Assembly: GCA_030524175.1 (NCBI GenBank)
Contig: JAUNHC010000018.1
Coordinates: 44,135 to 108,134 of the forward strand
Length of the DNA stretch: 64,000 nucleotides
DNA from: Eubacteriales bacterium
GTDB lineage: Bacteria > Bacillota > Clostridia > Lachnospirales > Lachnospiraceae
Direction of reading: 5' to 3'
Position 1 is the first letter of the stretch. Each line of letters starts with the position of its first letter. The notes beneath the pieces are model-generated. The model did no database searches. It saw only the letters and a program-made list of their open reading frames with translations, and had not been told where the DNA came from. The translations under genes and the position numbers were made by a program. Positions 3,707 to 32,430 of the stretch are shown here, in pieces.

Positions 3707-3738
3707 TTTCATTCTCCTTTATCTCTGGGCACATTTGC

Positions 3739-5085: not shown

Positions 5086-5089
5086 AGGC

Positions 5090-5521: not shown

Positions 5522-5533
5522 TGCCGCTCCTCC

Positions 5534-6025: not shown

Positions 6026-6098
6026 TTTGTTCTGTCCTCCCGGATTTTTTTTGACGTATCCGCTGTAGAGTGTGTCGGAATGAATTTTCAAACGCGCT

Positions 6099-7328: not shown

Positions 7329-7343
7329 ATTGCCTGTTTCCTC

Positions 7344-9005: not shown

Positions 9006-9142
9006 TTATTTGTCCTTCCTTTTTCTGTGTGATTTATTATGAAAGCCCCTGACATCCTCTGCCTCACAGCAGCTCCCTATTGGTTCCCGGATTCCTGTCA
9101 CATGGCTATGTCAATATCTGTCGAATCTTTTGACTGCTAAAT

Positions 9143-16862: not shown

Positions 16863-16892
16863 CACACCTTTTTCTCCTTATAACATAAAATA
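16863..16892 (+). promoter_or_regulatory. Putative mother-cell (sigma-K/sigma-E type) promoter of cotJ operon
   Basis: CACAC (16863-16867), 16 bases, CATAAAATA (16884-16892), followed 38 bases later by the cotJA ATG. This fits the B. subtilis sigma-K pattern AC-N16/17-CATANNNTA; the -10 also fits sigma-E. Inference from the consensus only. Confidence 0.5.
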
Positions 16893-16930: not shown

Positions 16931-17287
16931 ATGGAAAATTGTCAAATGAACCGTCCGGGCTGCCGCCCTTATAATAACACCTGCGGCATGGGAAGAGCAC
17001 AATGCCACTCCCAAATGCCCATAGCTGACAGGACGCCTTGTCAGTCTGACCGAACACCTTGCAGATACGAAAGACAGCAGAATGATAACTGTTCCTGCCG
17101 CATGCCCGGAACAGTTTCTCCTGAAGCTGAAATGTATGCACATGTGGATCATATGCCTGTTGCCATGGCTTATGTACCATGCCAGGAGTTTACCACAACC
17201 TTTGATTTATGCTATGCATTAAATGTAGGAACTATTTTCCCGCAATTATGCAAACCATTCTGCGGAAGGAGAGGTGGCTGCCGATGA
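16931..17287 (+). CDS. cotJA: Spore coat associated protein CotJA
   Basis: 118 residues. The C-terminal part (AMAYVPCQEFTTTFDLCYALNVGTIFPQL, residues about 77-105) matches the CotJA family; the N-terminal 75 residues are Cys-rich and variable. CotJA, B and C are made in the mother cell and form part of the inner coat in bacilli. The ATG at 16931 has AAAGGA 7 bases upstream. The stop overlaps the cotJB start (ATGA). Confidence 0.88.
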   Translation: MENCQMNRPGCRPYNNTCGMGRAQCHSQMPIADRTPCQSDRTPCRYERQQNDNCSCRMPGTVSPEAEMYAHVDHMPVAMAYVPCQEFTTTFDLCYALNVGTIFPQLCKPFCGRRGGCR

Positions 17288-17571
17288 TGTACAGTAATAA
17301 TAATCAGAATTCCAGAAACCAGCTTCTTAAGAACCTTAATGAAGTAAGCTTTGCTGTAGATGATATTCTGCTGTACCTGGACACTCATCCCTGTGATGAG
17401 AAAGCTCTTGACTTCTATGAAAAAATGGCCCTGAAGCGCAATGAATTGTTGGCGGAATATGCCAAATGCTTTGGCCCCCTGACAATTGACAGTGCAGCAG
17501 AGTCCTGCGGTGACACCTGGAAATGGATGCAGCAGCCATTCCCATGGGAAAAGGAAGGAGCGTGCAGATAA
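17284..17571 (+). CDS. cotJB: Spore coat peptide assembly protein CotJB
   Basis: 95 residues. LKNLNEVSFAVDDILLYLDTHPCDEKALDFYEKMALKRNELLAEYAKCFGPL is the family signature region (residues about 13-65), and the tail carries a WMQQPFPWEKE motif typical of CotJB. It begins at the overlapping ATG of the cotJA stop. The cotJC 5' part follows 3 bases after its stop. Confidence 0.9.
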   Translation: MMYSNNNQNSRNQLLKNLNEVSFAVDDILLYLDTHPCDEKALDFYEKMALKRNELLAEYAKCFGPLTIDSAAESCGDTWKWMQQPFPWEKEGACR

Positions 17572-17574
17572 TCT

Positions 17575-17688
17575 ATGTGGAATTATGAAAAGCGATTACA
17601 GTATCCAATTAACATTACAACACCTAATGCCAAGATTGCTCAGTTTATTATGAGTCAATACGGCGGTCCTGACTGCAGCAACCTATAA
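17575..17688 (+). CDS. cotJC: CotJC, 5' part (gene interrupted after codon 29)
   Basis: MWNYEKRLQYPINITTPNAK and on to SQYGGPD is the CotJC N-terminus, but after Asp33 the frame reads CSNL and stops, giving a 37-residue stub. The missing 181 codons are at 31888-32430. The junction falls in GGCGGTCC (17662-17669), whose first base begins codon 30. CotJC is a manganese-catalase-like coat protein. In the present arrangement no functional CotJC can be made. Confidence 0.92.
   Translation: MWNYEKRLQYPINITTPNAKIAQFIMSQYGGPDCSNL
17662..17669 (+). other. attL core of the cotJC element
   Basis: GGCGGTCC inside CAATACGGCGGTCCTGAC. The matching right end reads CAATTGGGCGGTCCGGAT, so eight bases are identical and CAAT is also shared upstream. 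Confidence 0.8.
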
Positions 17689-18558
17689 TAAAAAGTCTCT
17701 TACATTAATTGTCTGTCTGAATCCTTCCGTGTTCATTGCGTTTCTCTGTCTGTATTCCCCCGGCGTACATCCCATATATTTTTTAAACTGACGTGAAAAG
17801 TAATTCTGACTGGAAAATCCGCATCTTATAGCCACAGAGTATATGGAAGTTTCGGGACTGCACAGACTTTCGCAGGCTTTCTGAATCCGCACAGACATTA
17901 GATAATGGTACACGGACATCCCTGTATATTTCTGGAAAAGCTGATTCAAGCGTGTTTTGCCATAGCCCATTCCCCGGCAAAGATCTTCCAGGGTTATCTG
18001 CTCTTTGTAATGCTCATCCAGATAAGCACACAATTCTTTTGCCATATGGGTATCCGGTACAGGAAACTTGTGATGGTTTGTGATATAGTCGGCACAAACC
18101 CGGCACATAGTAACAAAAGATTCAAGACTGTGAAGATCAATTTCTACCAGCTGATCTAAAGCTTTGTTTATTTCTTCATCACTTTCTATCTTCATCCTGC
18201 GGGCCTTTTGGAACACCTCTGCCCTTGCCTTGGGATTCTTTTCCAGCATCTGTCCTGCCATCATATAACCTGCCAGTGTTCCATAATGATACAACGGAAC
18301 CACTGCCTCATAAAGACCCATATGACATTTATAAAGATGAAATCTTCGTTCCTTTTTAACTGTTTCAAAATTTTCTCTGTCTGCTTTTTGGCATTTTAGG
18401 AGACCATCAGGAAGGGCTGCTACAAGATTGCAGAAATGTGCACCTTTATCCGGATACTCTGCCAGAGGGTTCCCGTGTAAATCATAAACCACTATCACGA
18501 TTCCCGATATGGTATATAAGTCCTTTAAAATATCCTCCAAAGATATCTCTTCATTCAT
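17683..18558 (-). CDS. PocR-domain AraC-family transcriptional regulator
   Basis: 291 residues. The N-terminal half (about 5-165) is a PocR-type sensory domain with conserved Cys/His positions (CNLV, KCQKAD, KCHMGLYEAVVPL); the C-terminus (about 175-275) is an AraC DNA-binding domain with two helix-turn-helix units ending in FSRQFKKYMGCTPGEYR. It is divergent from the MATE gene 168 bp away and may control it. Its stop codon is only 14 bp inside the left end of the element. The ligand is unknown. Confidence 0.88.
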   Translation of the reverse strand: MNEEISLEDILKDLYTISGIVIVVYDLHGNPLAEYPDKGAHFCNLVAALPDGLLKCQKADRENFETVKKERRFHLYKCHMGLYEAVVPLYHYGTLAGYMMAGQMLEKNPKARAEVFQKARRMKIESDEEINKALDQLVEIDLHSLESFVTMCRVCADYITNHHKFPVPDTHMAKELCAYLDEHYKEQITLEDLCRGMGYGKTRLNQLFQKYTGMSVYHYLMSVRIQKACESLCSPETSIYSVAIRCGFSSQNYFSRQFKKYMGCTPGEYRQRNAMNTEGFRQTINVRDFLL

Positions 18559-18725
18559 TTTCTTTACCCCTTTTTATCACAAGTGGTCGAATGTGCTAAT
18601 AATAATCCTATTATACATTGTTTTTAGGAAGAATACCACCTATGATTGTCGTAACAAAATCAAATAACCAAACAGCTGCAACGGATCTAGAGTATTTGGT
18701 TTGGCATGAAGGAAGGTATTATTTT

Positions 18726-20096
18726 ATGCAGTTTATACAGGATATGACACATGGTTCACCACTAAAACTTCTCGTTCGTTTCTCTCTTCCGATGATAATA
18801 GGAAACCTGTTTCAGCAGTTATATACCATGACTGATTCCATTATTGTGGGGAAATTTATAGGTGCGGATGCATTGGCATCAGTGGGCGCATGTAATTCCG
18901 TCACTTACTTGTTATTTTCCTTATGTCTGGGACTTTCCTCCGGAATCGGAATTGTCATTTCCCAACATTTCGGCTCCGGAAACGAAAAAAATATACGCAA
19001 AGCAATCGGCAATTCCATCTATCTTCTTTTATCCTGTGCAATCGTACTAACCGTTTTGGGGCTTCTGTGTGCAAAGCCCGTCATGGAGCTGCTCGGCACG
19101 CCGAAGGAAATCATGGGGAATGCTGTATCCTATTTTCAGATTGTCACAGCCGGAACTATTGCCGTAGCCTTTTATAACGGTATTTCTTCCATTCTGCGCG
19201 CATTGGGAGACAGCAGGACACCTTTATTTTTTTTGATTCTGGCAGCACTGCTTAACATCGGACTGGATTTGCTCTTTGTGCTCATTTTCCATATGGGTGT
19301 TGCAGGCACTGCCCTGGCAACAACACTGGCACAGCTTGTTTCTGCCTGCAGCTGTCTGGCATTTGCCATACACACCAATCCTTATTTCCGCCTGACCAAA
19401 ACCTGCTTTGCCCCTGACAGGGAACTGATAACCCAAATGCTCCATATCGGACTTCCCTTGTCCCTTCAAAATGCTATGATCGCTTTATCATGTACTGTCC
19501 TGCAGGGAATCATCAACACCTTCGGCACAACCGTAGTGGCAGCCTTTACTTCCACCAACCGCATCGAAAGCCTCATTGCCCAGGTTTTCCTTTCTCTAAA
19601 TACTGCTCTGTCCAGCTATACGGCCCAAAATCTGGGTGCGGAAAATCCAGACCGGGTAAGGCAGGGCACCCGGTGCAGTGTTGGCATTGTATGTGTATTT
19701 TCTATAATCATGCTTTTATTCATATATCTTTTTGGAAAGTCTGTTATGGGCTGGTTTGTTCAAGAGCCGGATGTAATTCAAACAGGCAGCCGTGCTCTGA
19801 AACTCATAAGCTGTTTCTTTGCTGCATGGGGGCTTCTCTATGTATTCCGCGGTGTATTAAACGGTGCAGGAAATGCAGGCTTTGCCTATGTCAGCGGACT
19901 TCTGGAAATTATAGGACGAGTAGGATTTGCCCTGCTTTTTACCCGGATGGACTCCGTAGGTGTATGGGGGATTTGGCTGGCAGAAGGATGCACCTGGATC
20001 CTTATAACCGTTGCAGGCATCTATTGTTATCGGCGGGGGAACTGGAAGCACTCAAAGCTCATCCGTGTATCTGCCGGAAAATATTCCCTGCGATGA
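18726..20096 (+). CDS. MATE-family multidrug efflux transporter
   Basis: 456 residues, about twelve membrane segments. LPMIIGNLFQQLYTMTDSIIVGKFIGADALASVG near the start and the repeated half with NGAGNAGFAYVSGLLEIIGR are typical of MATE Na+/H+-drug antiporters (DinF/NorM-like clade of Firmicutes). The start at 18726 is chosen from family alignment and a nearby GGAAGG; longer forms from 18618 add non-conserved residues. It is divergent from the PocR-AraC gene, a common regulator-transporter pairing. Confidence 0.88.
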   Translation: MQFIQDMTHGSPLKLLVRFSLPMIIGNLFQQLYTMTDSIIVGKFIGADALASVGACNSVTYLLFSLCLGLSSGIGIVISQHFGSGNEKNIRKAIGNSIYLLLSCAIVLTVLGLLCAKPVMELLGTPKEIMGNAVSYFQIVTAGTIAVAFYNGISSILRALGDSRTPLFFLILAALLNIGLDLLFVLIFHMGVAGTALATTLAQLVSACSCLAFAIHTNPYFRLTKTCFAPDRELITQMLHIGLPLSLQNAMIALSCTVLQGIINTFGTTVVAAFTSTNRIESLIAQVFLSLNTALSSYTAQNLGAENPDRVRQGTRCSVGIVCVFSIIMLLFIYLFGKSVMGWFVQEPDVIQTGSRALKLISCFFAAWGLLYVFRGVLNGAGNAGFAYVSGLLEIIGRVGFALLFTRMDSVGVWGIWLAEGCTWILITVAGIYCYRRGNWKHSKLIRVSAGKYSLR

Positions 20097-20272
20097 TTTC
20101 TGCAATGTATTCCTGCAGCACATGCAAAACCTCTTCATATATTTTATTAAGTTTTGGAAAGTGTGACCTGAATTTGTGCGTTTTTGTCTCATCCCGCAAA
20201 AAATATTCTTTTTTTCTTTTCATTTCTCTTGATCCCCATTTAAAATCGCACATATTTGTCCTCTTACATTCA

Positions 20273-20301
20273 TTGACTTTTAGTGATTTTGCCTATAAAA
20301 T
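20273..20301 (+). promoter_or_regulatory. Sigma-A promoter of the secreted protein gene
   Basis: TTGACT (20273-20278), 17-base spacer, TAAAAT (20296-20301), about 68 bp before the ATG. Confidence 0.65.
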
Positions 20302-20368
20302 CAAGACATCAATTTATTCTTCCGTCCGGACAAAGAGTATAAAAATATCATTATCGGAGGAATTTTTC

Positions 20369-22114
20369 ATGAAAAGAAAATCAGCATCAATCATTCTCAC
20401 CTCCCTGTTGATCGGCTGCTTTCCCATTGCTGTAAGTGCAGCGGAAGCACCTGTTCTTGAGGTAGAAAGCCATCTTTTGGGAAGTGCTTATACCAACGGA
20501 AAAAGCACATTAAAATATCACCTGAATACAGGGGTATCCTACGGCGAAGATTCACAATGTATCTTTACCCTCTCCTTGCCTGACGGTTCGTCTGTGGATG
20601 ACAGCAAAATCGACTGCAGCAGTGCCTCCGTATCTCTTACCAACGGAGACGGATACTATCCGGAAGAATATACCTTCCAGGCAGTTGAATTAAATGGTGA
20701 ATGGAAAAACGGTCAATTCATCTACCGTTTAGACCAAGGTGACCTAGAGCTAAATCTTGACCTTTATCCACTGGAAGATAAGGACAGCGGACGTGAATGG
20801 AGCTGTCTGGGAGGAGACGGTCATGGTAATTATCATTTTAACCTGACAGTCAGCGGTATTGTCTATGACGGTGCTGAAGTGGAAAGCCAGTCTTTCCCTG
20901 TTGATATTTCTATTTTTGGTTATAATTATACCAGCGATGCGCAAAAACTGTACGGAGAGGAAGGCTCACCAACTATTCAGCCTGTATTCTCTTCTTTAAA
21001 GGAAAAAACAAATACTTCTCCGGAGGTAAAAGACGAACCCGTCTGGACTTGGGTTGGTGATGGTGAAAAGCCTATTCTCTGCGACGCTTTGGCCGATGAT
21101 TTTTATATAAGCTGGCCGGAAAATATCGATGCCTCTTCCCTTACCAACAGCGATGTCACCATCACCTTATCAAATAATAATGGTGAAACACTTGCCCTGA
21201 GTGCTGACAAAGACTTTTACATACAGTCTGAGGGTTCTGAAACCCAAATTGCACTGACCTTCCAAAACTGGGCATTCACTCCAGTCTATACTTCTATGAC
21301 CATTGATGTTGACGGCACCGCAAAGGCTTCTGAAACTTATGATATCGGCAGTGTATATGTGTACGAAGCACAGCAGGGCGGCGGCGGCCAGACTGTAGAT
21401 GGTACCGTAACTGCCTACAGTTTTTATGGATTTGCAAATCTGGAATCCTGGGAGCAAATACTGGGGACTCCGGCTTATTTGTTAAAAACCGAAAAAGACG
21501 GTGCAGAATACTATTATGCAGAAGATGCCGACAGCAATGGTTATCTGACCCAGGCTCCGGAAGAAGCATTAACTTTTGATGCTGTTGAGGAACGTAATCC
21601 CCAGCTTATCGGCAATACAGTGTATATTACTACGAGAACTGATTTAAAGGAAATTGAAAAAACAGTGGATGGAGAGAACATTGTATTTACACAAGCTTAT
21701 CCCGGCTGGGATTTCCCTCTGCCATTAGGCAGCCTGCTAAGTCCCAATGCCTGCGATGAGAGCTTGGAGGCAGCTCCCGGATATGTCATCCCCTGGGGAA
21801 CTGAAAACTGGATCACAAATGAAAAATGGGCCTGGCAGAAAGGTATAGAAGAAGGCTGGACCGGAATCGAAGTCACCCCTTATGAAGGCAAATACGAGTG
21901 GAAAGTTGCCAAAGGCGCTTCCCAGCAGTTCTCTGCCGAAACCGACAGCTTAACATGGGAAATCATCGGTGATATTGATGAAGGAACCTCTGTTACCCAA
22001 GAAGGACTCCTTACTGTAGCTGAAGACGAGTCTCACCCATCCTTTGCCGTAACTGTAACAGATCCTGACGGCAATCTTGGCACAGTTACTATTAAAGTAA
22101 CAAACCCGGAATAA
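20369..22114 (+). CDS. Secreted protein of unknown function with C-terminal Ig-like segment
   Basis: 581 residues. The signal peptide (MKRKSASIILTSLLIGCFPI, cleavage after SAA near residue 24) is followed by an acidic, beta-rich, Asn/Thr/Tyr-rich mature protein. The last 75 residues (GKYEWKVAKGASQQF, then WEIIGDIDEGTSVTQEGLLTV) resemble bacterial Ig-like (Big-type) domains. No catalytic motif is recognised. The start at 20369 has CGGAGG 7 bases upstream; the same frame is open to 19490, but that part overlaps the MATE gene and is not coding. A strong convergent terminator follows. Confidence 0.8.
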   Translation: MKRKSASIILTSLLIGCFPIAVSAAEAPVLEVESHLLGSAYTNGKSTLKYHLNTGVSYGEDSQCIFTLSLPDGSSVDDSKIDCSSASVSLTNGDGYYPEEYTFQAVELNGEWKNGQFIYRLDQGDLELNLDLYPLEDKDSGREWSCLGGDGHGNYHFNLTVSGIVYDGAEVESQSFPVDISIFGYNYTSDAQKLYGEEGSPTIQPVFSSLKEKTNTSPEVKDEPVWTWVGDGEKPILCDALADDFYISWPENIDASSLTNSDVTITLSNNNGETLALSADKDFYIQSEGSETQIALTFQNWAFTPVYTSMTIDVDGTAKASETYDIGSVYVYEAQQGGGGQTVDGTVTAYSFYGFANLESWEQILGTPAYLLKTEKDGAEYYYAEDADSNGYLTQAPEEALTFDAVEERNPQLIGNTVYITTRTDLKEIEKTVDGENIVFTQAYPGWDFPLPLGSLLSPNACDESLEAAPGYVIPWGTENWITNEKWAWQKGIEEGWTGIEVTPYEGKYEWKVAKGASQQFSAETDSLTWEIIGDIDEGTSVTQEGLLTVAEDESHPSFAVTVTDPDGNLGTVTIKVTNPE

Positions 22115-22141
22115 GCTTCCGGCTGATCTGCAAAAAGTTTC

Positions 22142-22180
22142 AGCGCTTCTGCCTGTTATTAAGGCAGAAGCGCTGTTTTC
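22142..22180. terminator. Bidirectional terminator
   Basis: Thirteen-base perfect arms AGCGCTTCTGCCT (22142-22154) and AGGCAGAAGCGCT (22162-22174), then GTTTTC. It lies between the converging secreted-protein and histidine-kinase genes. Confidence 0.85.
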
Positions 22181-22189
22181 ATATCTTCT

Positions 22190-23638
22190 TTACGGCAAAT
22201 CGATCATCACTTTTAACCCTTTGTCCATCCCTTCCAGACTGATTTCAGCCCTTCCGTCAAAGAACTCTTTCAGCCTGTATGCTACACTGCGCAATCCAAT
22301 CCCCCGTTCCCCTGATTCAAAAGGACGATACATTTCCCGCTCTATTTCATAAAGGGTTTCTTGATCCACCCCTTCTCCATTATCCTTCACTTCAATCACA
22401 GTCTGCTTGTTCTTTTCATAAATATTGACCTCCACTGACCCATGTCCGCTGTGATTCTTCAAACCGTGGGAAAGGCTGTTTTCAATCAACGGCTGGAGGA
22501 GTAAGGCCGGAATCTTCTTCTCTGAACAAGCTTCCTCACACTGTACTGTGAAACCCACCCTGTCTCCAAACCGTATTCTCTGAAGATCCAGATATGCCTC
22601 TGTATGCTCTACCTCCTCCTGGATCGTCACACTTTTTCCAATACGGTCCAGAAAGGTTCTGAGATAATCTGCCAGTTGTATAGAACATTCCTCTGTACGC
22701 TCTGCCTTTTCAATAAAAGCCAGACTGGATAAAGTGCTCAGACAATTAAACAGGAAATGGGGGCTGATCAGAGACTGAAGAAGGCTCATTTCTGTCTGCT
22801 TCAGTGCTACCTTTGTCTGCATATGCTCCATCTCCAACTGATGAAGTTCTTTGGTGACTCGGATTTTTTCCAACAATTCGTCCATCTGACGCCGGATCAC
22901 AGATATCATTTCCTCAAACGCGTGTGTTAAAATAACCGTTTCCCGGCAAGTGTCCGGCACAAACTCCCCTTGCTGTGATTCCTTAAAATTATTTTCCGTT
23001 GCCATTCTCACTCTTTCCGTTAATTCTATGATAGGTCTTGATAAATTATCAACAAACCTGGCTCCTTGAAAAAATACTATAATGCAAACCAGAATCCCCA
23101 ATAACAGCAAAAACTGCTGCTGTTTATACCAGTCTCTGCTGTTATTGTGAATACTTTCCGAAATCAGCTGGTGTTCTATACTTCCCGTAGTTTCATAGCT
23201 CTCCAATACCAGCCGGTACCATGACATGGTTTGACTATAATAGGGAAAAGCCGTGTCCTCCGGATTCTCTTTCCTGGCTCTCATAAAGTCATCCACTGCT
23301 TCCAGATAACTCTGTACAATATAATAATTATCAACCATCTGGGCATGAGGAAAGTCAGTTGTCAACTGCCTGACATATTGCAAAAATTGTGTTTTTTCCG
23401 CTTCCAGACTCTCCGCAGTAATCATTCCGGAATGATTAAAATATCCTGTTACTGTCTCCTGCAACTTGTCTGCTTTTGATTGATAAGAATCATAAGAAAG
23501 CTGAACGTTTAAAATATGATTCAGATTTTTCACAGTCTGATAATTCAAATATACCGTCACCATATAAAATACAATCATTGTCCCCAGAATGCCACCAATA
23601 ATATAAATCATCTTACGGCGTATTGACTGATTTTTCAT
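22190..23638 (-). CDS. YesM-type sensor histidine kinase
   Basis: 482 residues. One membrane helix near 10-30, an extracytoplasmic helical region, a second helix near 175-195, a HAMP-like linker (RFVDNLSRPIIELTERV), a coiled coil, then the His_kinase domain with phospho-acceptor ISPHFLFNCL (near 290) and an ATPase domain with ENSLSHGLKNH and DNGEGVD / GIGLRSV. Last gene of a three-gene sensory operon; its ATG overlaps the response-regulator stop. The partner solute-binding lipoprotein suggests it senses a sugar-like ligand. Confidence 0.92.
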   Translation of the reverse strand: MKNQSIRRKMIYIIGGILGTMIVFYMVTVYLNYQTVKNLNHILNVQLSYDSYQSKADKLQETVTGYFNHSGMITAESLEAEKTQFLQYVRQLTTDFPHAQMVDNYYIVQSYLEAVDDFMRARKENPEDTAFPYYSQTMSWYRLVLESYETTGSIEHQLISESIHNNSRDWYKQQQFLLLLGILVCIIVFFQGARFVDNLSRPIIELTERVRMATENNFKESQQGEFVPDTCRETVILTHAFEEMISVIRRQMDELLEKIRVTKELHQLEMEHMQTKVALKQTEMSLLQSLISPHFLFNCLSTLSSLAFIEKAERTEECSIQLADYLRTFLDRIGKSVTIQEEVEHTEAYLDLQRIRFGDRVGFTVQCEEACSEKKIPALLLQPLIENSLSHGLKNHSGHGSVEVNIYEKNKQTVIEVKDNGEGVDQETLYEIEREMYRPFESGERGIGLRSVAYRLKEFFDGRAEISLEGMDKGLKVMIDLP

Positions 23639-25059
23639 TTATACTTACCTCGCTGATATTCCGTTACACTTACTCCCGTCACACGCTTAAAAACCTCCAG
23701 GAAATACTTTTTATTATAATAACCACAGGCAGAAGCTACTTCATCTAAATCGGCCTTTTCATTTTTCAGACACTCCCTGGCCTTTTCAATCCTTATTTCA
23801 TTGAGCATCTGCGCAAATCCCTTTCCTGTTTCCTTTTTAAACAAATGACTGAAATAGGTATCTGTAAAACCCAACATTTCTGCCATTGAATCCCGGGAGA
23901 TTTCTTCAGAACAATGTTTTTTCATATAGGATACCGCAAAAGCAATGGGGCTTTGACCGCCCTGCTGCCGATAATATTTAGCCAGCCAGCATTCCAGGCC
24001 GGCATAAGTTTTTTTACCCCGCAATAATTCCAACAGGAGTATCTGATCGACAGACGGATCCATTTGATAAAACACTTGGCACAGCAAAGACGCATATTCC
24101 CAATAGCATCCGCTGGCTGTTATTTTCCGTCTGAACATGCGAACGAAATTTTCCGCCTGTTTTTCTCTCAGCCGCTGCTGCCACTTCTTTTCCTGTTTCT
24201 CTCTGTCCCTTACAGGCAGATCATGGGAAGCCAGCCGTTGAAAATCTATCTCTTCCCTACTTTGTTCCTGGATTTTTATTAAACAATTGTCACAGACACT
24301 TTTAAGAAGCTCATAGGTATCGCAATAATCACTGACAAAAAGACTCCCCTTACCGGACTTTTTCCAAACCTCCATCAGACAGCACTGCAAAATAAGCCTC
24401 TGTTCCTGTCTGTCTCTGCCCTCTCGTTCTTTCAAAAAATATAACGCTGTCCCATCTATGTTCCCCTCAAAAGCTGAAAAGAAGGGCGAAAATAACTTTT
24501 TATCCACACTACATCCCTTCGCAGCCACCACACAGACTCCCAGTTCCCCGTCTACTGCCCATCCATAAGCCGTCTCTAATGTGGACCGCGGATAATTTCC
24601 CCCTATAATATCTGCAGTCAGATACGGTTCCGCATAAGACGATACTTCAGTGCGCACAAACTCCCCACGGGCAATCTCACGTTCCTTTTCCAATTGTGCC
24701 AGACATTTATCCATCGCTGCCTCTAATTTCCTTCTATGTACTGGTTTTAAAAGATATTCTACTACCCCTAACGTCAGTGCCTCCCGAATGTATCCTGTCA
24801 TATCATAAGCCGTTATGATTAAAATTTTGCCTGAATATTGCTCTTCTTTTAACTTTGTGATCAGTTCCAGGCCTGATATACCGGGAATATTAATGTCTAC
24901 CAGCATGATTTCCGGTTTTTCCTGCCTGCATAGTTCCAGTGCCTTCCACCCGTCTCCTGCAGCAAAAACATCCATTTGCTCCCCGTATATGCGTTTTACA
25001 TTTCCGCAAAGTGCCGTCTGTTCCAGCAGCTCGTCCTCTACGATCAGTACCTTATTCAC
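23635..25059 (-). CDS. YesN-type response regulator with AraC output domain
   Basis: 474 residues. N-terminal receiver (VLIVEDELLEQTAL, phospho-Asp in MLVDINIPG near 55, Lys in LLKPVHRRKLE), a long middle region, and a C-terminal AraC-type double helix-turn-helix (about 370-470: MAEMLGFTDTYFSHLFKKE and SACGYYNKKYFLEVFKR). Overlaps the kinase gene by 4 bp and the upstream lipoprotein gene by 8 bp. Target genes are not evident; no sugar ABC transporter is encoded nearby. Confidence 0.92.
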   Translation of the reverse strand: MNKVLIVEDELLEQTALCGNVKRIYGEQMDVFAAGDGWKALELCRQEKPEIMLVDINIPGISGLELITKLKEEQYSGKILIITAYDMTGYIREALTLGVVEYLLKPVHRRKLEAAMDKCLAQLEKEREIARGEFVRTEVSSYAEPYLTADIIGGNYPRSTLETAYGWAVDGELGVCVVAAKGCSVDKKLFSPFFSAFEGNIDGTALYFLKEREGRDRQEQRLILQCCLMEVWKKSGKGSLFVSDYCDTYELLKSVCDNCLIKIQEQSREEIDFQRLASHDLPVRDREKQEKKWQQRLREKQAENFVRMFRRKITASGCYWEYASLLCQVFYQMDPSVDQILLLELLRGKKTYAGLECWLAKYYRQQGGQSPIAFAVSYMKKHCSEEISRDSMAEMLGFTDTYFSHLFKKETGKGFAQMLNEIRIEKARECLKNEKADLDEVASACGYYNKKYFLEVFKRVTGVSVTEYQRGKYK

Positions 25060-25996
25060 TGTTCCTTCCCCCCGTTCCCTCTTCTGCAGTAATCAGCGTA
25101 CTATCCACATATGACTGCTTCTTTTCCAGTTTTTCTTCATCTAAAAGCTTCTTCATCTGGCAGACTGCCATTTCACCTATCTGATCATTATCCTGCAGCA
25201 AAAGGGCCGATATGACACCATTTTCCAGATACTGTTCCGCCTCCTGTGATTCCCCAAAACCTACCAGACTGATTTCCCCCTCCAATTTCATTCTGCAAAG
25301 CGTCTCTGCAGCCTGCACTGTACAGGAAGGATCAAAAGACACAATCCATTTTAGATTCTCTGACGTCTGGATGCCTTGCTCTATTCCCTCCAGCCGTTCT
25401 TCATTTTCTTCTTTTAAAGGCAGCAAGGTTACTTCACTTTCTCCCTGTGCCGTCATATAATCCAGAAAAGCATTTTTTCTTTTTTCTACTGCACCAGAGG
25501 CAGAAGGATTCAAAACTAAAATATGCTCCTCAGGTATTTTCCGTTTACAGACATATTCCGCCAGCTGCCGGCCTGCCATCTCATTATCTATGCCTACAAA
25601 TGCATCGTAAAGTTCGCTTTCTATATCTGTATCCACCACCACGATTTTAATACCGCTTTCCCGCACGGAACGAAGCACTTGAAAAACTTCTTCATCCCCA
25701 TTATCGGACACAAATAAAATGATTCCTTCCGGCTTTGCCGCATAAGCCAGCACCAGCCGGTCAATAATGGGATCATTTGCACTTGAAGGATATTCCGACA
25801 AGGCAATCCCCTCTTCCTTAATACTGCTATGAATACCGTTCCATACCTGCTGCCAGAAATCTGTCACTCTGATTTTTCCGTTTTCCGGCAATACTGCCGC
25901 TACCCTGTATCCTGAATCTTTCACATCCTGCTTTACAGCGCAGCCCGTCATCAACGCCATGGATAACAGACAGATACCACATTGATATTTTTTCAA
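25052..25996 (-). CDS. Solute-binding lipoprotein (periplasmic-binding-protein type I) of a sensory operon
   Basis: 314 residues. A lipoprotein signal peptide ending in the lipobox LMTGC (Cys19), then a LacI/RbsB-like fold (VAAVLPENGKIRVTDFWQQV, FVSDNGDEEV, GIDNEMAGRQLAEYV, VGFGESQEAEQYL). A TTG start at 25996 has GGAGGAG five bases upstream. First gene of the operon with the YesM kinase and YesN regulator; probably presents a ligand to the kinase rather than to a transporter. Confidence 0.87.
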   Translation of the reverse strand: MKKYQCGICLLSMALMTGCAVKQDVKDSGYRVAAVLPENGKIRVTDFWQQVWNGIHSSIKEEGIALSEYPSSANDPIIDRLVLAYAAKPEGIILFVSDNGDEEVFQVLRSVRESGIKIVVVDTDIESELYDAFVGIDNEMAGRQLAEYVCKRKIPEEHILVLNPSASGAVEKRKNAFLDYMTAQGESEVTLLPLKEENEERLEGIEQGIQTSENLKWIVSFDPSCTVQAAETLCRMKLEGEISLVGFGESQEAEQYLENGVISALLLQDNDQIGEMAVCQMKKLLDEEKLEKKQSYVDSTLITAEEGTGGRNSE

Positions 25997-26083
25997 CTCT
26001 TCTCCTCCAACAATCCCACAAAGCCTGGATTCTCTCCTATATCAGTCTTATACAGCGATACCCAAAATATATCTGTCAGCCAG

Positions 26084-26671
26084 TCAACGATCACTTTTAG
26101 CCAGAAACCCAAAAACACCGTTAGCCACTAACCCCTGTGCCATTTTGAAAAACTCATCATCTGTCAGGTCATTGCCGTTTTCAAACCATTTTGTCATTAA
26201 GCCGATCATGGCAGAGTAAGCGTATTCCATCAGATAATCCAGGTGCTCCATCTGTTCCGGCAGATTCCAAAACCGCATTAGAAGCACCTGGAAGCTTTCT
26301 CTGAACTTACCGGTAAATTTAGGGTCTCCGTTTTTCCCAAGCAATGTAAAAATCTTGTCCTCATGCTTTTTAAATATAGGCATACTCATTGAATATAAAC
26401 AATCAATGTCTCTTGGGTTTTCTTCAAAATTATGATTGTTTAAAACATCGGTTACTTCTCTGCGCACTTCTTCTATAAGATCATTTTCGATCTGTTCTAA
26501 GACCTCATAGATATCTTTAAAATAATTATAAAAGGTTCCTCTGTTATTTCCGGTTATACTTGTAATCTCAGCGATTGATATCTTATCAATGGCTTTTTCT
26601 TTATAAACGTTCCAGAACGCGTCCATTAATTTTTTCCTTGTAGCAGCTGTGACTTCCGGTTGTTTTTTCAC
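26084..26671 (-). CDS. TetR-family transcriptional regulator (of the adjacent ABC operon)
   Basis: 195 residues. N-terminal helix-turn-helix IDKISIAEITSITGNNRGTFYNYFKDI, then a helical effector domain. The GTG start at 26671 has GGAGGG 7 bases away; the frame extends to 26731 without a ribosome site. Divergent from two ABC ATPase genes with palindromes in between. Confidence 0.88.
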   Translation of the reverse strand: MKKQPEVTAATRKKLMDAFWNVYKEKAIDKISIAEITSITGNNRGTFYNYFKDIYEVLEQIENDLIEEVRREVTDVLNNHNFEENPRDIDCLYSMSMPIFKKHEDKIFTLLGKNGDPKFTGKFRESFQVLLMRFWNLPEQMEHLDYLMEYAYSAMIGLMTKWFENGNDLTDDEFFKMAQGLVANGVFGFLAKSDR

Positions 26672-26724
26672 AGTATTACCCTCCTCTCTTTTGTCATTCT
26701 GAATAAAATCCCTCTCAGCATCAG

Positions 26725-26800
26725 GCAACAATACCCGAAAGATTGTTGCTTGATAAAAAATACAGCTTCAACTATAATCGCATCATACAACACATTGTTG
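26725..26800 (+). promoter_or_regulatory. ABC operon promoter flanked by CAACA..TGTTG palindromes
   Basis: TTGATA (26750-26755), 17 bases, TATAAT (26773-26778). GCAACAAT (26725-26732) and ATTGTTGC (26742-26749) form a palindrome abutting the -35; CAACACATTGTTG (26788-26800) forms another just after the expected transcript start. Likely operators of the divergent TetR protein. Confidence 0.7.
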
Positions 26801-26828
26801 CACAAATCAAGTATAAGGAGAGATACAA

Positions 26829-27740
26829 ATGTCAGTTATAGAGGTCAATAAGTTGACAAAAGACTACGGACATGGCAGAGGTGTGTTCGATGTATCTGCT
26901 CATGTGAATGAAGGAGAGTGCTTTGGATTTCTTGGGCCAAACGGAGCCGGTAAGAGCACAACCATCAGACATTTGATGGGTTTTTCAAAGCCACAGAGCG
27001 GAACTGCCGCCATTGACGGAAAGGACTGCTGGGAATATTCTGCTGAGCTTCAGCGTGAAGTGGGATATTTACCCGGAGAGATTGCCCTGCCTTCGGGAAT
27101 GACGGGAACACAGTTTTTAAAAATGCAGATGAAAATGAGAGGTGTGACAGATGCCTCCTATTTAGAAAAATTACTGGAAACTTTTGATCTGGACCCTGAC
27201 ATCGGATTAAAACAGATGAGTCTGGGTACCAAGCGAAAACTGGCGGTTGTCACTGCATTTATGCACGACCCCCGAATATTGATCCTGGATGAACCAACCT
27301 CCGGACTTGACCCTATCATGCAGGAAATCTTCATTGAATATATTCTTGAAGAAAAGAAAAGAGGGAAAACCATATTTCTGTCCTCCCATATTTTCCATGA
27401 GGTAGATGCTTCCTGCGACAGAATTGCCATTATCAAGGACGGAAAAATCGTTTCAGAGTTTGACCCGGAGATACTAAAAAAAGAAAGTGACAAGATTTAC
27501 AGAGTTACTTTCCACGAAAAAAAACAGTGGAAGGAATTTACCTCACATACTTATCATTTTACTTCCGTAAACGAAAGAAAGCTGCGTGCCAGAATCCAGC
27601 TGAAAAACAGGGAAATCACACCATTCCTCGCAGATATCTCCCAATATCATATCACCGATTTTACGGAGTTCCCCTTTTCGCTGGAAGATTATTTTATGCA
27701 GTTTTATCATGAGGATAAGATATTTGAGGGGGTGAAGTGA
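26829..27740 (+). CDS. ABC transporter ATP-binding protein
   Basis: 303 residues. Walker A GPNGAGKST (near 38-46), Walker B ILILDEPTSGLDP and switch histidine SSHIF are present; the signature region reads MSLGTKRK rather than LSGGQ, a common variant in DrrA-like drug and antibiotic exporters. The C-terminal 80 residues are a DrrA-type extension. It is followed by a paralogue (ATG overlapping the TGA) and by a permease. Confidence 0.92.
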   Translation: MSVIEVNKLTKDYGHGRGVFDVSAHVNEGECFGFLGPNGAGKSTTIRHLMGFSKPQSGTAAIDGKDCWEYSAELQREVGYLPGEIALPSGMTGTQFLKMQMKMRGVTDASYLEKLLETFDLDPDIGLKQMSLGTKRKLAVVTAFMHDPRILILDEPTSGLDPIMQEIFIEYILEEKKRGKTIFLSSHIFHEVDASCDRIAIIKDGKIVSEFDPEILKKESDKIYRVTFHEKKQWKEFTSHTYHFTSVNERKLRARIQLKNREITPFLADISQYHITDFTEFPFSLEDYFMQFYHEDKIFEGVK

Positions 27741-28654
27741 TGAACGATGTTATAATACAAACAACCGGACTGACCAAGGACTACGGCAAATGCCGGGGGA
27801 TTTTCGATATAAATCTTGAGATTCACAGGGGCGAGGTATTCGGCTTTATCGGAACAAACGGTTCCGGAAAGACCACCACCATCCGTAATATGATGGGTTT
27901 TATCCGGCCGGACCGGGGAAATTCTGTCATTAACGGTCTTGACTCATGGAACAGTTCTGCGGATATCATGAAAAATGTCAGCTATGTCCCTGGTGAAATC
28001 GCTTTTCCTGCTCTGAAAACAGGAACTGAATTCCTGAAATCCCAAGCAAAATATCTGGGTGTTACAGATTTTAAATATATGAATCATGTAATCGAGCTGC
28101 TCCAATTAGACCCTACGGCAAATCTAAAAAGAATGAGCAAGGGCATGAAGCAGAAGACAGCTATTGTTGCCGCATTAATGGGAGAAAAAGAAATTCTTGT
28201 GTTAGACGAACCCACCACCGGCCTTGACCCGCTCATGCGTGAATCATTTTTGGAGCTGATTCGTGAAGAAAAACAGAAGGGCCATACCATTTTTATGTCC
28301 AGCCATATTTTTGAGGAGATAGAAGCCGTATGCGACAGAGTTTCAATGATAAAAAACGGCCATATCATTGATACCACCTCACTGTATGATCTGCGCCATC
28401 CTTCTACCAAGAATTTTATCATTGAATTCAAACAAAAGGAGGATCAGGAACAGTTCATTGAAAACCGCCTGTTCGCAATCACCTGTACTGAAATAAACAC
28501 CTGTACTGTTCAATGTTCCGTTGACCAATTGGATGCTTTATTCAATATCCTTAAAAACTACCAGATTACAAATTTACGTGAAATCCACCTCTCACTGCAG
28601 CAGCAGTTTATGAGAGCATATAAGGAGGGAATCGCTCATAATGGAAACAAATAA
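27740..28654 (+). CDS. ABC transporter ATP-binding protein (paralogue)
   Basis: 304 residues, clearly related to its upstream neighbour: Walker A GTNGSGKTT, MSKGMKQK in place of the signature, Walker B ILVLDEPTTGLDP. ATG at 27740 overlaps the preceding stop. Two different ATPases with one permease suggest a heterodimeric ATPase pair. Confidence 0.92.
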   Translation: MNDVIIQTTGLTKDYGKCRGIFDINLEIHRGEVFGFIGTNGSGKTTTIRNMMGFIRPDRGNSVINGLDSWNSSADIMKNVSYVPGEIAFPALKTGTEFLKSQAKYLGVTDFKYMNHVIELLQLDPTANLKRMSKGMKQKTAIVAALMGEKEILVLDEPTTGLDPLMRESFLELIREEKQKGHTIFMSSHIFEEIEAVCDRVSMIKNGHIIDTTSLYDLRHPSTKNFIIEFKQKEDQEQFIENRLFAITCTEINTCTVQCSVDQLDALFNILKNYQITNLREIHLSLQQQFMRAYKEGIAHNGNK

Positions 28655-29834
28655 AAAAACAGCCCGATTTTTTTCTAAGCCTTTAATGGGGCAGACGATC
28701 AAGGCCAACTGGGGATTATGCCTTGCAATATTACTTATCATGATACTTCTTGGAAACGTCATGAACTATGCCATGAGCATGATGGCAACGGAAAAGTCCG
28801 ATGTGGACGTCACAGAGTACCAGGAAAACTTCTACTCCTATTTGGGAGCGTTAGCCACCTATGACACAATGACCCAGCAGGAATTGTCTTACGATGATTT
28901 TGTAAACGGAAACAATGAGGCAGCATATGAAACAGCTTTTGAGATGCTGAATGCACAGGCTGACATGGACCTTAGTACAGACGGTTTCCGCCAGTCCATA
29001 GACGGACTGTCACAATCCGACATAAGCCTTGACAAATATGTAAAGCAATTTGAATATGTGTATGCTCTGAACCAATCGGAAGGTGTGTTTGACAAAGAAG
29101 AACTGACAATTTCTGAAATGCTTACCGTCACACTGGATATGATGGGGGTTTCCTCAGATATGGTGGAGAAAATGAGTGAAATGAATCCCGCCTCCATGAT
29201 GAACCAAATGTATTATACGGCAATGGGCTTACTTCCCATTTTCATTCTTATTGTAATCCTGGCAAATTCTCTCATTGCCAATCAGGTTGACCGGGGTTCC
29301 ATGGCATATGTACTGTCCACACCTACCAAACGCTCAGCAGTTGCCATAACACAGATGGTATTTATGATCGTTGTACCGTTTTTGATGGTCGCTATTGTCT
29401 GTGCAACCCGGGTGGGAACTTCCCTGCTGTTTTACGATGAAGTAAATGTACCGGGAATCATTGCCTTGTTCGGCGGAATGTATATTCTTGTTGAAGCAGT
29501 ATGTGCACTGTGCTTTATGGGAAGCTGCCTGTTCTCACAAAGCAAAAAATCAATGGCTTTTGGCGGCGGACTTGCAGTTTGGTTTTTCCTTGCATCCATG
29601 ATCGGTCTGTTTGGATCAGAAAATATGGTCAATACGGGAATGGGTGTGGAGGAACTTAGCGTATTTAACAAGCTCACTCTGGTGGGTTTATATGATGTGG
29701 ACTCCTTGTCAACCATCGGCACCGGCAATGTGGATACCACCTTTGTATGGAAGCTGTTAGTTTTAATCGCTGTGGCAATTGTTTGTTATACAGTGGGCGC
29801 AGTGAGATTTTCTAAAAAAGATTTACCGCTGTAA
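28641..29834 (+). CDS. ABC-2 type transporter permease
   Basis: 397 residues. One membrane helix near 25-50, a large extracytoplasmic acidic loop (about 50-185), then five hydrophobic segments (from MYYTAMGLLPIFILIVILANSL onward). Overlaps the second ATPase gene by 14 bp. Substrate unknown; the TetR-ABC-ABC-permease set suggests inducible export of a toxic compound. Confidence 0.87.
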   Translation: METNKKTARFFSKPLMGQTIKANWGLCLAILLIMILLGNVMNYAMSMMATEKSDVDVTEYQENFYSYLGALATYDTMTQQELSYDDFVNGNNEAAYETAFEMLNAQADMDLSTDGFRQSIDGLSQSDISLDKYVKQFEYVYALNQSEGVFDKEELTISEMLTVTLDMMGVSSDMVEKMSEMNPASMMNQMYYTAMGLLPIFILIVILANSLIANQVDRGSMAYVLSTPTKRSAVAITQMVFMIVVPFLMVAIVCATRVGTSLLFYDEVNVPGIIALFGGMYILVEAVCALCFMGSCLFSQSKKSMAFGGGLAVWFFLASMIGLFGSENMVNTGMGVEELSVFNKLTLVGLYDVDSLSTIGTGNVDTTFVWKLLVLIAVAIVCYTVGAVRFSKKDLPL

Positions 29835-29848
29835 TATAAAAGAAAACG

Positions 29849-29899
29849 CCAGGGATAAATCTCTTTCACTAAAGAAATTTATCTCTGGTGAATTTTATT
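29849..29899 (+). terminator. Terminator of the ABC operon
   Basis: CCAGGGATAAAT (29849-29860) pairs with ATTTATCTCTGG (29877-29888) with one G-U, an inner CTTT/AAAG pair, then TGAATTTTATTT. Confidence 0.8.
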
Positions 29900-29975
29900 T
29901 ATACAGGGTACTGTTCAATTTTCAGACACTCTGAAAATCTTCTTATTCTCCTGATCTTCCCACATTTCTCCCGTC

Positions 29976-30155
29976 TCACACATTCTTACCGTTCTTGCAG
30001 ACTGTCCCATTTACGCACCTTTCATAATTAATCCCTGCCATAGCCAAATCCACTCTTTGTTCAATAATCTCATCAACCTTTTCTTTCGGCAATTGATCAA
30101 ATGTATAATATTTCCCATCTATGCGGATCCGGGGGACAATTTCAATCTTTTTCAT
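29976..30155 (-). CDS. Small basic protein, candidate recombination directionality factor
   Basis: 59 residues, MKKIEIVPRIRIDGKYYTFD then QLPKEKVDEIIEQRVDLAMAG and a short tail with two Cys. GGGAGG lies 7 bases before the ATG. It is divergent from the serine recombinase, 265 bp away, and inside the element. Directionality factors of large serine recombinases are typically small and encoded near the integrase (for example in the C. difficile skin element). The family itself is not recognised, so this role is inference from size and position. Confidence 0.6.
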   Translation of the reverse strand: MKKIEIVPRIRIDGKYYTFDQLPKEKVDEIIEQRVDLAMAGINYERCVNGTVCKNGKNV

Positions 30156-30419
30156 TTTGACACCTCCCTTGATTATGTTATGAAACTCAGTCCCCTATGG
30201 TTCCTAACAACTTACTAATACCCTCTCAATTACTCCGATGAAAATATGGCGTAGACCCTGGCAGGATATTGCCGGTGGCAGTAAGGGCGTACCCAATTCT
30301 GAGGCAGTCTTTTTTACGGAAACTTTCCATATATTAGTGATGCCAGGGGCAAAAGGCCCTGCCATGCATAGCGACATGTGCTTTTAGCCCCTGTCATCCT
30401 ATTAATAAGAGGTGATATA
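30156..30419. other. Leader region of the serine recombinase
   Basis: No gene. CATATATTA at 30328-30336 fits the sigma-E/sigma-K -10 pattern (CATANNNTA), but no good -35 is seen at the right distance. Downstream, AGGGGCAAAAG (near 30345) can pair with CTTTTAGCCCCT (near 30372), so the leader may fold before the start codon at 30420. Confidence 0.4.
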
Positions 30420-31847
30420 ATGTCAGAAAAAGAAATACAAAGAATAAAAACCGGGGCATTATATATACGAGTTTCCACTCACGACCAGGATGATCTGTCT
30501 CCTGATGCGCAAAAACGCCTTTTACAGGAATATGCTGAAAAAAATTATATTCACATTCCAAAAGAATTCATCTTTGTTGAAAGTGTTTCCGGACGAAACG
30601 TGAAAAAACGTCTTGAATTTCAACGTATGATATCCATGGCAAAAACTCCGGAACATCCCTTCGATATCATTCTCGTGTGGAAATACAGCCGTTTTGCCAG
30701 GAACCAGGAAGAATCCATTGTATATAAAAGCATGTTAAAAAAAGATAATGTGGATGTTATCAGTATCTCGGAGCCTGTGATAGACGGCCCCTTCGGAAGC
30801 CTGATAGAACGTATCATAGAATGGATGGACGAATATTATTCAATCCGTCTTTCCGGTGAGGTCATTCGAGGTATGAAAGAAAAAGCACTTAAACATGGCT
30901 ATCAGACCACACCGCCTCTGGGGTATAAAGCTGTGGGAAACGGCAAGCCTTTTATTATAGATGAGGAGGAATTTAAAATCGTGTCTTTTATATTCTCTCA
31001 ATATGATGACTATGCACAAGACTGTACAGCAATTGCAAGAAAATGCAATGACCTGGGATATCGTACGAAACGGGGAAATCTTTTTGAAAAAAGAACCATA
31101 GATTATATCCTTCACAATCCTTTCTATACAGGAACTGTGACCTGGAACGGACAAAGCTTTGAAGGCTCTCATGAAGTACGATACACCAAAGAACAGTTTG
31201 CCGGCCGGATCAAACTTATGGACGCCCGCAAGCGCCCGTCTAATCACAGAAATCCGTCCGTCTGCAGGCACTGGCTTTCCGGTTTGATCAAATGCTCGGT
31301 ATGCGGTGCCACCCTGGCTTATTCCGGCAGTTCCGGGACCCCTAACTTTCAGTGCTGGAAATATGCCAAGGGTATTCATAAGACCTCCAGCAGCATCACG
31401 GTCAAAAAAATGGAACGGCTGATCCTGGAATATTTTGAAGAGATCCTCAATGGAAAGGACTTTCACTATGTTCAGAAAAAAAATCCCGAAAAAAATATTA
31501 ACCGATCAGAGATATTGCAGTCAGAATTGTCCCGTCTCTCTGCTAAAGAACAGCGGATCAAATTGGCTTACGAAAATGAAGTGGACACTCTGGAGGAATA
31601 TTGTGTAAATAAACAACGCCTGCAAAATCAACGTACTGCCATAATGCAAGAGTTATCTTCCCTGGATTGCGGATCACCTGTTATTTCTAAAGAAGACGTG
31701 CTGGCCCGTATACAATCCGTATATGACGTTATACGAAATCCTGATGTCAGTTATGATATTAAAGGAAATTTTATACGTACGGTGATCAATGAAATTGTAT
31801 ACGATAAAAATACAGGAAAAGCATATTTTGACGTCATCATTTCTTAG
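30420..31847 (+). CDS. Large serine recombinase (site-specific integrase/excisionase)
   Basis: 475 residues. Catalytic N-terminal resolvase domain with ALYIRVSTHDQ (nucleophile Ser19), the SGRN and WKYSRFARN segments, a Recombinase domain (about 160-270: TPPLGYKAVGNGKPF, FYTGTVTWNG), a zinc ribbon (CSVCGATL ... CW) and a C-terminal coiled coil (about 360-420). Large serine recombinases join attP and attB without host factors and need a directionality factor to excise. The start at 30420 has AGAGGTG upstream. Its stop is 40 bp from the right end of the element in cotJC, so it almost certainly made this insertion and could reverse it. Confidence 0.95.
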   Translation: MSEKEIQRIKTGALYIRVSTHDQDDLSPDAQKRLLQEYAEKNYIHIPKEFIFVESVSGRNVKKRLEFQRMISMAKTPEHPFDIILVWKYSRFARNQEESIVYKSMLKKDNVDVISISEPVIDGPFGSLIERIIEWMDEYYSIRLSGEVIRGMKEKALKHGYQTTPPLGYKAVGNGKPFIIDEEEFKIVSFIFSQYDDYAQDCTAIARKCNDLGYRTKRGNLFEKRTIDYILHNPFYTGTVTWNGQSFEGSHEVRYTKEQFAGRIKLMDARKRPSNHRNPSVCRHWLSGLIKCSVCGATLAYSGSSGTPNFQCWKYAKGIHKTSSSITVKKMERLILEYFEEILNGKDFHYVQKKNPEKNINRSEILQSELSRLSAKEQRIKLAYENEVDTLEEYCVNKQRLQNQRTAIMQELSSLDCGSPVISKEDVLARIQSVYDVIRNPDVSYDIKGNFIRTVINEIVYDKNTGKAYFDVIIS

Positions 31848-31887
31848 TCCCTGTCAATCTCCGTTTTCTTATAGGCTGCCGCAATTG

Positions 31888-31895
31888 GGCGGTCC
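31888..31895 (+). other. attR core of the cotJC element
   Basis: GGCGGTCC within CAATTGGGCGGTCCGGATGG, in the same codon phase as attL. In the excised circle the core would be flanked by GCTGC and GCAGC arms (GCTGC near 31876, GCAGC near 17675), an inverted repeat expected of attP. Confidence 0.8.
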
Positions 31896-32430
31896 GGATG
31901 GAGAGATAAGTGCATCCATGCGTTATCTTTCCCAGCGTTTTACTATGCCAAACCGTATGTCTATGGCTGTTCTCAATGACATCGGCACCGAGGAGCTCGC
32001 TCATTTAGAAATGGTTTCCACTATTGTCCATCAGTTGACCCGTGACCTCAGTATGGAAGAAATCGAAAAATCCGGTTTCGGAAACTATTATATTGACCAT
32101 GCAGTTGCCATATGGCCCCAGGCAGCGGGCGGAATTCCTTTTAACGCATGTGAATTCCAGTCAAAAGGCGATCCTATCACAGATCTTCACGAGGACCTGG
32201 CTGCAGAACAGAAAGCCCGCTCCACTTACGATAATATTCTACGTGTAGTACGCGACATGCCGGAAATTGCTGACCCCATTAAGTTCCTCCGTGCCCGTGA
32301 AGTAGTTCATTACCAGCGATTTGGCGAAGCTCTCCGTTCCATTCAGGAGCAGTTGGATTCCAACAACTTCTATGCGTTCAACCCAAGCTTCGACAATCCT
32401 TGTAAAGCAAGCTGCAAAGACTGCAAGTAG
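31888..32430 (+). CDS. cotJC: CotJC, 3' part (gene interrupted)
   Basis: 180 codons reading GGPDGEISASMRYLSQRF and on to the stop, the body of CotJC. It is a ferritin-like, manganese-catalase family protein: EELAHLEMV, DLHEDLAAEQKAR and AREVVHYQRFGEAL hold the Glu and His metal ligands. The C-terminus (CKASCKDCK) is Cys-rich. There is no start codon or ribosome site for this part; it can be expressed only when joined to codons 1-29 at 17575-17661. It shows no internal stop or frameshift, so it is still under selection or was interrupted recently. Confidence 0.92.
   Translation, partial: GGPDGEISASMRYLSQRFTMPNRMSMAVLNDIGTEELAHLEMVSTIVHQLTRDLSMEEIEKSGFGNYYIDHAVAIWPQAAGGIPFNACEFQSKGDPITDLHEDLAAEQKARSTYDNILRVVRDMPEIADPIKFLRAREVVHYQRFGEALRSIQEQLDSNNFYAFNPSFDNPCKASCKDCK

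Follow-up and report, generated by a model that had tools for sequence, protein, structure and literature searches.

The window analysed here, a 64,000-nucleotide stretch from a Lachnospiraceae genome (Eubacteriales bacterium, contig JAUNHC010000018.1), holds a spore coat gene, cotJC, that is split in two by a 14.2-kb element with its own large serine recombinase (LSR). From its anatomy and its relatives, the insert is well supported as a sporulation-gene intervening element. We consider it quite probable that it undergoes programmed excision in the mother cell, with a 59-aa protein expressed under sigma-K as the controlling factor, and that this restores cotJC.

The cotJC frame begins with an ATG at 17575 on the plus strand, downstream of cotJA and cotJB, and its first 29 codons (17575-17661) run into the sequence GGCGGTCC at 17662-17669 before a TAA at 17686-17688 closes the frame. 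A second copy of GGCGGTCC lies at 31888-31895 in unchanged codon phase, followed by the remainder of the gene through 32430, so that the gene is broken at codon 30 with 14,226 bp between the two cores. The 5' piece matches the Pfam profile Mn_catalase over positions 1-33 (26.4 bits, slightly under its cut-off of 27 bits) and the 3' piece over positions 28-198 (132 bits); a CotJC HMM likewise places the 5' piece at positions 1-33. Both pieces are intact and share one strand, one frame and a common core at each junction. The original prediction, of undamaged halves in the same strand and phase 14.2 kb apart, a core at both junctions and a large serine recombinase 40 bp from the right one, is borne out by these coordinates and profile matches, and by the recombinase frame, which ends at 31847, 40 bp short of the right core (Table 1).

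An 8-bp repeat taken alone is weak evidence for the ends of an element. Two observations set this one apart from a chance repeat: many other genomes have the break in the same codon, next to a related LSR, and the two element ends, once joined, form the symmetric site TATAGG-N12-GGCGGTCC-N12-CCTATA. Comparing the outer arms of 24 elements at this position (S1, see below) over 14 positions gives 8.7 matches within an element, against 6.3 between elements and 4.0 in shuffles. A chimeric assembly was considered and rejected, since the break recurs in unrelated assemblies, some of them complete genomes.

How widespread the break is can be gauged from a sample of 396 Lachnospiraceae genomes with completeness of at least 90. 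Among the matches listed, 250 of them have a cotJC-family match; 83 with weak best matches were chosen by eye and 80 of these were examined. The gene is broken at one of three fixed places in 77 of the 80: S1, near codon 30 (31 genomes, of which 13 have both sides listed); S2, near codon 63 (42 genomes, 33 with both sides); and S3, near Pfam position 148 (15 genomes, 11 with both sides). Ten genomes have more than one break position. Broken cotJC is thus present in at least 54 (both sides) to 77 (one side or more) of the 250 genomes, a range that may be too low, as genomes with an intact copy beside a split one mostly lay outside the examined set, or too high, as the one-sided cases might include diverged ends. 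Random contig breaks were rejected as the cause, given that 146 of 160 inner ends fall within three intervals spanning about 15% of the profile, these intervals having been chosen after viewing the matches. From the 80 stretches retrieved (L033-L112), 55 junction pairs, some of them across different contigs, were aligned in the register of the CotJC profile. Common cores emerged, GGNGGNCC at S1, around GGTAC-GAAG at S2 and GCAGCAGA at S3; some pairs (e.g., L054, L057 and L061) have little core in common. The comparison with relatives that had been proposed as a check found intact cotJC, with an empty site, in other relatives and, in further species, insertions into the same codon that carry related LSRs.

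Several genomes carry more than one insertion. At L101 (genome G398) cotJC lies in three pieces with breaks at S1 and S2. The gene is likewise in three pieces at L102 (G411), accompanied by three LSRs; its last piece stops at S3, and the continuation was not located. In G052 the gene is in four pieces over three contigs. Where there are two or three breaks, every piece seen remains open. The smallest element measures about 1.6 kb (G351) and the largest 87 kb (Hungatella hathewayi), and the cargo varies. A separate arrangement is found at L144 (Clostridium sp. Marseille-P2415), where positions 1410-9108 hold three tandem copies of an LSR plus small gene at cotJC; the 5' cotJC piece is present twice in that genome.

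The recombinases themselves sort by target. A position was assigned to 59 LSRs; four of them, short or partial, were set aside and the other 55 were placed in a tree. On it the S1 LSRs (15) and the S3 LSRs (11) each form one clade with 100/100 support, and the S2 LSRs (29) fall into two clades and a single long-branch row, L051. Position labels change twice on this tree against a mean of 22.6 when shuffled, and none of 200 shuffles was as low; LSR clades follow insertion position. A scan of named genomes with an alignment of 14 S1 LSRs, of which the best 80 rows were kept, yielded 79 loci, 58 of them with a cotJC piece. Carriers include Blautia schinkii DSM 10518, B. massiliensis GD8, B. parvula NBRC 113351, H. 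hathewayi DSM 13479, Clostridium clostridioforme AGR2157, Lacrimispora celerecrescens, L. xylanisolvens and L. amygdalina. A piece of a second gene, sleC, adjoins the S1-related LSR in 16 of the other 21 loci (L169, L171, L172, L174, L175, L176, L178, L180, L183, L184 and L186-L191). Two such pieces match the solved pre-pro-form of the spore cortex-lytic enzyme (E 2.5e-87 and 1.1e-42) and meet near residue 351; open PubMed Central full texts, subscription literature aside, contain no report of an interrupted sleC. Two more loci, L137 and L162, stop 124 and 70 bp past the LSR, and neither gene explains L130, L173 and L179. Among virus-contig loci, 18 of 80 have a cotJC piece.

Selection on a split cotJC can be judged from five Lacrimispora-type genomes with a collinear S1 element (L160, L164, L165, L167 and L185), two of which bear other genus or family labels. 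Element and flanks are 81-95% identical over 3.7-4.7 kb, and one ancestral insertion is therefore the simplest reading. The element is 2.7 kb long and has three genes, for an LSR, a PdaC/DUF3298 protein and a small protein of the 59-aa family; L165 has an additional second element at S2. When L160 is compared with L185, nonsynonymous divergence (dN) in the cotJC 3' half is 0.012 and synonymous divergence (dS) is 0.57, for an omega of 0.02 over 165 codons, and the 5' half has no amino-acid changes in 28 codons with a dS of 0.44; the LSR has an omega of 0.07. These rates indicate that the Lacrimispora halves are under strong purifying selection while split. The window's own halves were compared with intact relatives as well, where synonymous sites are saturated or nearly so and four of eight relatives were missed by the start motif; this comparison cannot separate change before the insertion from change after it, and the selection argument is therefore drawn from Lacrimispora.

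Joined forms of related elements come from a virus collection. Three IMG/VR contigs contain a joined attP, with both arms around the core and no adjoining cotJC: L193 (29.3 kb, LSR 65% identical to the window's), L273 (20 kb, LSR 51% identical) and L272 (5.2 kb, LSR end only). What they carry are relatives of the window's element and not that element itself. The joined ends suggest a circular form; exact end repeats were not found in the compared ends of these contigs.

The question of control leads to the small protein. In the skin element of Clostridioides difficile, according to the available parts of the published account, the LSR is sigma-A-dependent and requires a directionality factor expressed under sigma-E and SpoIIID (PMC5025042). 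As it is this factor and not the LSR that is under mother-cell control there, the region upstream of the 59-aa gene was inspected. A profile built from five members, including the window's, and iterated was searched within the collected loci, so that what it measures is an association with S1 as opposed to S2 and S3 elements and not a genome-wide one. It matches 96 loci, and the family is seen only with S1-type LSRs: its five matches within L033-L112 are all in S1 elements, and 33 of the 58 named cotJC loci have it, with at most 6 kb covered on each side. Searches of Pfam and PHROGs gave no usable match for the protein. Upstream of 72 unique homologues, the sigma-K-type pattern AC-N16/17-CATA occurs in 56, compared with a mean of 3.7 and a maximum of 9 in 100 dinucleotide shuffles, and the strict form AC-N16/17-CATAnnnTA in 27, compared with 0.4. 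Sigma-E-type and sigma-A-type patterns occur in one and none of the 72, respectively. Where a cotJC piece is in the locus, 27 of 36 genes have the sigma-K-type pattern, which is found in 3 of 124 LSR genes (the shuffle level) and in 20 of 658 other open reading frames (ORFs) of the same loci. Scans upstream of LSR genes for sigma-E, sigma-K, sigma-F/G and sigma-A promoters gave nothing clear. In the window, the 59-aa gene has a strict match, its CATA 27 bases ahead of the start codon.

The coat operon has the same promoter class: among 69 unique cotJA copies, 54 are preceded by a sigma-K-type pattern, which is strict for 40. Sigma-K promoters are described as having AC in place of the ATA found at the -35 of sigma-E promoters, and the cotJC-type operons of C. 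difficile, cotCB and cotD, are reported as sigK-dependent in the parts of that study available (PMC3789822). We infer from this pattern that sigma-K drives the 59-aa gene, and regard its product, by analogy with skin, as a candidate recombination directionality factor for the LSR. Two side observations concern these small genes. A conserved box, ACAAGTACAA, is found in the -35 region of 32 of the 72 upstreams (e.g., L138, L145 and L211) and might be the site of an additional regulator. S3 elements (L038, L040, L068, L070, L071, L091, L094, L102, L103 and L107) have a conserved gene of about 46 aa beside the LSR, possibly an excision factor of another family; for S2 elements, no comparable conserved small gene stood out in the small-gene search.

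The window's genome (5.95 Mb in 119 contigs) provides a further link to sigma-K, as its sigK gene is also split (locus L289). The two pieces, C51:120743-121018 and 129395-129751, lie on one strand 8.4 kb apart, an LSR frame ends at the second piece, and nearby frames resemble ABC-transporter genes by eye. From this layout, the insert at C51:120743-129751 appears to be a skin-like element. If it acts like skin, sigK excision would precede sigma-K activity, and cotJC excision would follow.

Taken together, the following mechanism is proposed. An integrative element would have entered codon 30 of cotJC through its own LSR, bringing transport and regulatory cargo. Growing cells would retain the element and have an unreadable cotJC. 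Late in sporulation, sigma-K in the mother cell would transcribe both the cotJABC operon and the 59-aa gene, and the 59-aa protein would make the LSR excise rather than integrate; recombination of the ends at GGCGGTCC would release the element as a circle, and a continuous cotJC would be read. The spore chromosome would retain the element, as the mother cell dies. We give somewhat better than even chances to a broader scheme, a mother-cell cascade in which sigK is excised first and sigma-K then induces small excision factors that free cotJC and sleC, with up to three elements lost per coat gene. Under this scheme, cotJC would be an old docking hub for four LSR lineages, used by phage and non-phage elements, each adapted to its codon.

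A number of observations weigh against programmed excision, and most of them would suit an ordinary integrative element that landed in cotJC and left the gene dead, with rare or unregulated excision and a paralogue serving the coat. The restored junction is absent from the window's assembly at up to 3 mismatches; excision restricted to sporulating mother cells would predict this, yet the absence provides no evidence for such excision. The exact joined attP was found in none of 397 family genomes. A second, full-length cotJC-like gene lies at C87:32161-32712 with a cotJB-like piece adjoining; aligned with the window's 3' part, it shows 64% identity across 173 residues. Full-length paralogues are also present in all three Lacrimispora genomes checked, and in 12 of 18 named carriers checked. 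In addition, cotJC-type genes appear dispensable in C. difficile as far as the available text indicates (PMC11222575), and the LSRs of three elements (L054, L058 and L066) are clearly shortened, so that some split copies may indeed be dead. The original prediction had held that a second intact cotJC would make the split one dispensable. Such a copy does exist, as a diverged paralogue, and it weakens the case that the split copy is indispensable but not the case for the excision mechanism: six of the 18 named carriers have no full-length copy. A dead gene also fits poorly with inherited halves at an omega of 0.02 in undamaged frames, with multiply broken genes that keep all seen pieces open and with a sporulation-type promoter on the small gene in 56 of 72 homologues, and we regard this explanation as improbable. 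The developmental switch originally proposed is supported by the recurrence of the break at fixed codons, the empty sites in relatives, the LSR clades, selection on the halves, the joined attP and the promoters; the restored junction is the part that did not appear.

Somewhat less improbable, but still unlikely, is that programmed excision is real and another factor controls it, with the 59-aa protein serving a different role, for instance as an LSR-linked regulator. The protein has no family match in Pfam or PHROGs, and its family was not found by profile in five S1 elements (L054, L055, L057, L101 and L102). Directionality factors are described as having no significant sequence similarity to one another in the parts of the source available (PMC5025042), and the identity of such a factor is therefore unreadable from sequence. 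The promoter evidence has its own limits, for the sigma-K consensus was picked after viewing the upstream sequences and these are mutually related, and LSR upstreams are mildly enriched for CATACAAT-like words (18 of 124 compared with 5.8), which limits the contrast between 59-aa and LSR genes to the full sigma-K pattern. What favors the 59-aa protein as the factor is that it is one of just three genes retained in the 2.7-kb Lacrimispora element, that it keeps company only with S1-type LSRs among the collected loci, and that its promoter class is what the skin precedent would lead one to expect. Lastly, the 3' piece might be expressed alone from the element as a shortened CotJC, with no need for excision. 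Its frame is open and could begin at 31789, within the LSR gene, but expression of this kind would leave the conservation of the 5' piece, unchanged over 28 codons between L160 and L185 at a dS of 0.44, without a reason, and we give the idea hardly any credence.

Table 1. Features of the split cotJ operon and the intervening element in the window.
Feature	Position	Strand	Basis
Sigma-K-type promoter of cotJ operon, AC-N16-CATAAAATA	16866..16892	+	strict match
cotJA	16931..17287	+	ORF, start checked; named by CotJA resemblance and position, without family search
cotJB	17284..17571	+	ORF, start checked; named by position, without family search
cotJC 5' piece, 29 codons and common core	17575..17669	+	Pfam Mn_catalase, CotJC HMM
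Left junction: core GGCGGTCC and element arm TGACTGCAGCAA-CCTATA	17662..17687	+	junction alignment
PocR-domain AraC-type regulator, cargo	17683..18558	-	Pfam
MATE transporter, cargo	18618..20096	+	Pfam
581-aa protein, apparent signal peptide (by eye), no family match, cargo	20369..22114	+	ORF, profile searches
Histidine kinase, cargo	22190..23638	-	Pfam
Response regulator with AraC-type domain, cargo	23635..25059	-	Pfam
Periplasmic sugar-binding-type protein, cargo	25052..25996	-	Pfam
TetR-type regulator, cargo	26084..26731	-	Pfam
Two ABC ATPases and one ABC-2 membrane protein, cargo	26829..29834	+	Pfam
59-aa protein, candidate recombination directionality factor	29976..30155	-	HMM match, E 8.4e-20
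Sigma-K-type promoter of 59-aa gene, AC-N17-CATA then CATAACATA	30179..30201	-	strict match
LSR, 475 aa from ATG 30420	30420..31847	+	Pfam, PHROGs
Right junction: element arm TATAGG-CTGCCGCAATTG and core GGCGGTCC	31870..31895	+	junction alignment
cotJC 3' piece: core, remaining codons, stop	31888..32430	+	Pfam Mn_catalase

The LSR of the window has a complete set of domains (Resolvase, Recombinase and Zn_ribbon_recom in Pfam) and matches the integrase family PHROG 95 (E 9e-100); its open frame, 30372-31847, also permits a GTG start at 30378. It is neither CcrB (NCBIfam NF047343, 113.1 bits, under the curated cut-off of 900) nor the fdxN recombinase XisF (NF041201, 57 bits, under the cut-off of 375) by these models, and the closest record in a phage collection is just 36% identical. 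Phage structural types were absent among the element proteins searched in Pfam. The LSR is located at the 3' end of the element in the window and at the 5' end, on the opposite strand, in L035 and L041 of the same genus, which occupy the same cotJC site; its location relative to the core has therefore switched.

The class of mechanism is a known one. Like skin in the sigK gene of Bacillus subtilis and C. difficile, the window's element carries an LSR and splits a gene probably expressed in the mother cell; unlike skin, its target is a coat gene, its cargo is not phage-like and the promoter of its candidate factor is of the sigma-K and not the sigma-E type. It also resembles gin, which splits the sporulation gene gerE in Bacillus cereus ATCC10987, has no phage genes and pairs an LSR with an extra factor, GirX. 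As described in the available text, gin is 28.6 kb long with three recombinases (PMC5595907), whereas the window's element carries a single LSR, interrupts another gene at another site and encodes an unrelated-looking small protein. Further elements that interrupt sporulation genes are SP-beta in spsM (PMC4191935) and vfbin in spoVFB, vrin in spoVR and yin in yabG (PMC10747680). For these four, the parts of the papers available describe one insertion per gene, in contrast to the three positions and up to three simultaneous breaks of cotJC. Sporulation genes on record as targets in these sources are sigK, spsM, spoVFB, spoVR, gerE and yabG (PMC5595907; PMC10747680; PMC4191935). The prophage phi027 of C. 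difficile R20291 is reported to adjoin the CotJC homologue CDR20291_1465 (PMC11222575, as far as its text is available). No report of an interrupted cotJC appears in open PubMed Central full texts, subscription literature aside; as far as these searches show, neither cotJC as a target nor its three positions, its multiple breaks or sigma-K-type control of the small gene has been described.

Programmed rearrangement in sporulation has so far been a matter of a handful of single insertions. Among the cotJC-bearing Lachnospiraceae genomes sampled here, between a fifth and a third have the gene interrupted, by several LSR lineages, and automatic annotation may mistake such split genes for pseudogenes. 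The collection is also a source of LSRs whose sites are predicted, and of a candidate directionality factor. If excision is confirmed, spore making in a dominant gut family would routinely involve the cutting of DNA, and the timing and the retention of such elements could be tested in many natural repeats.

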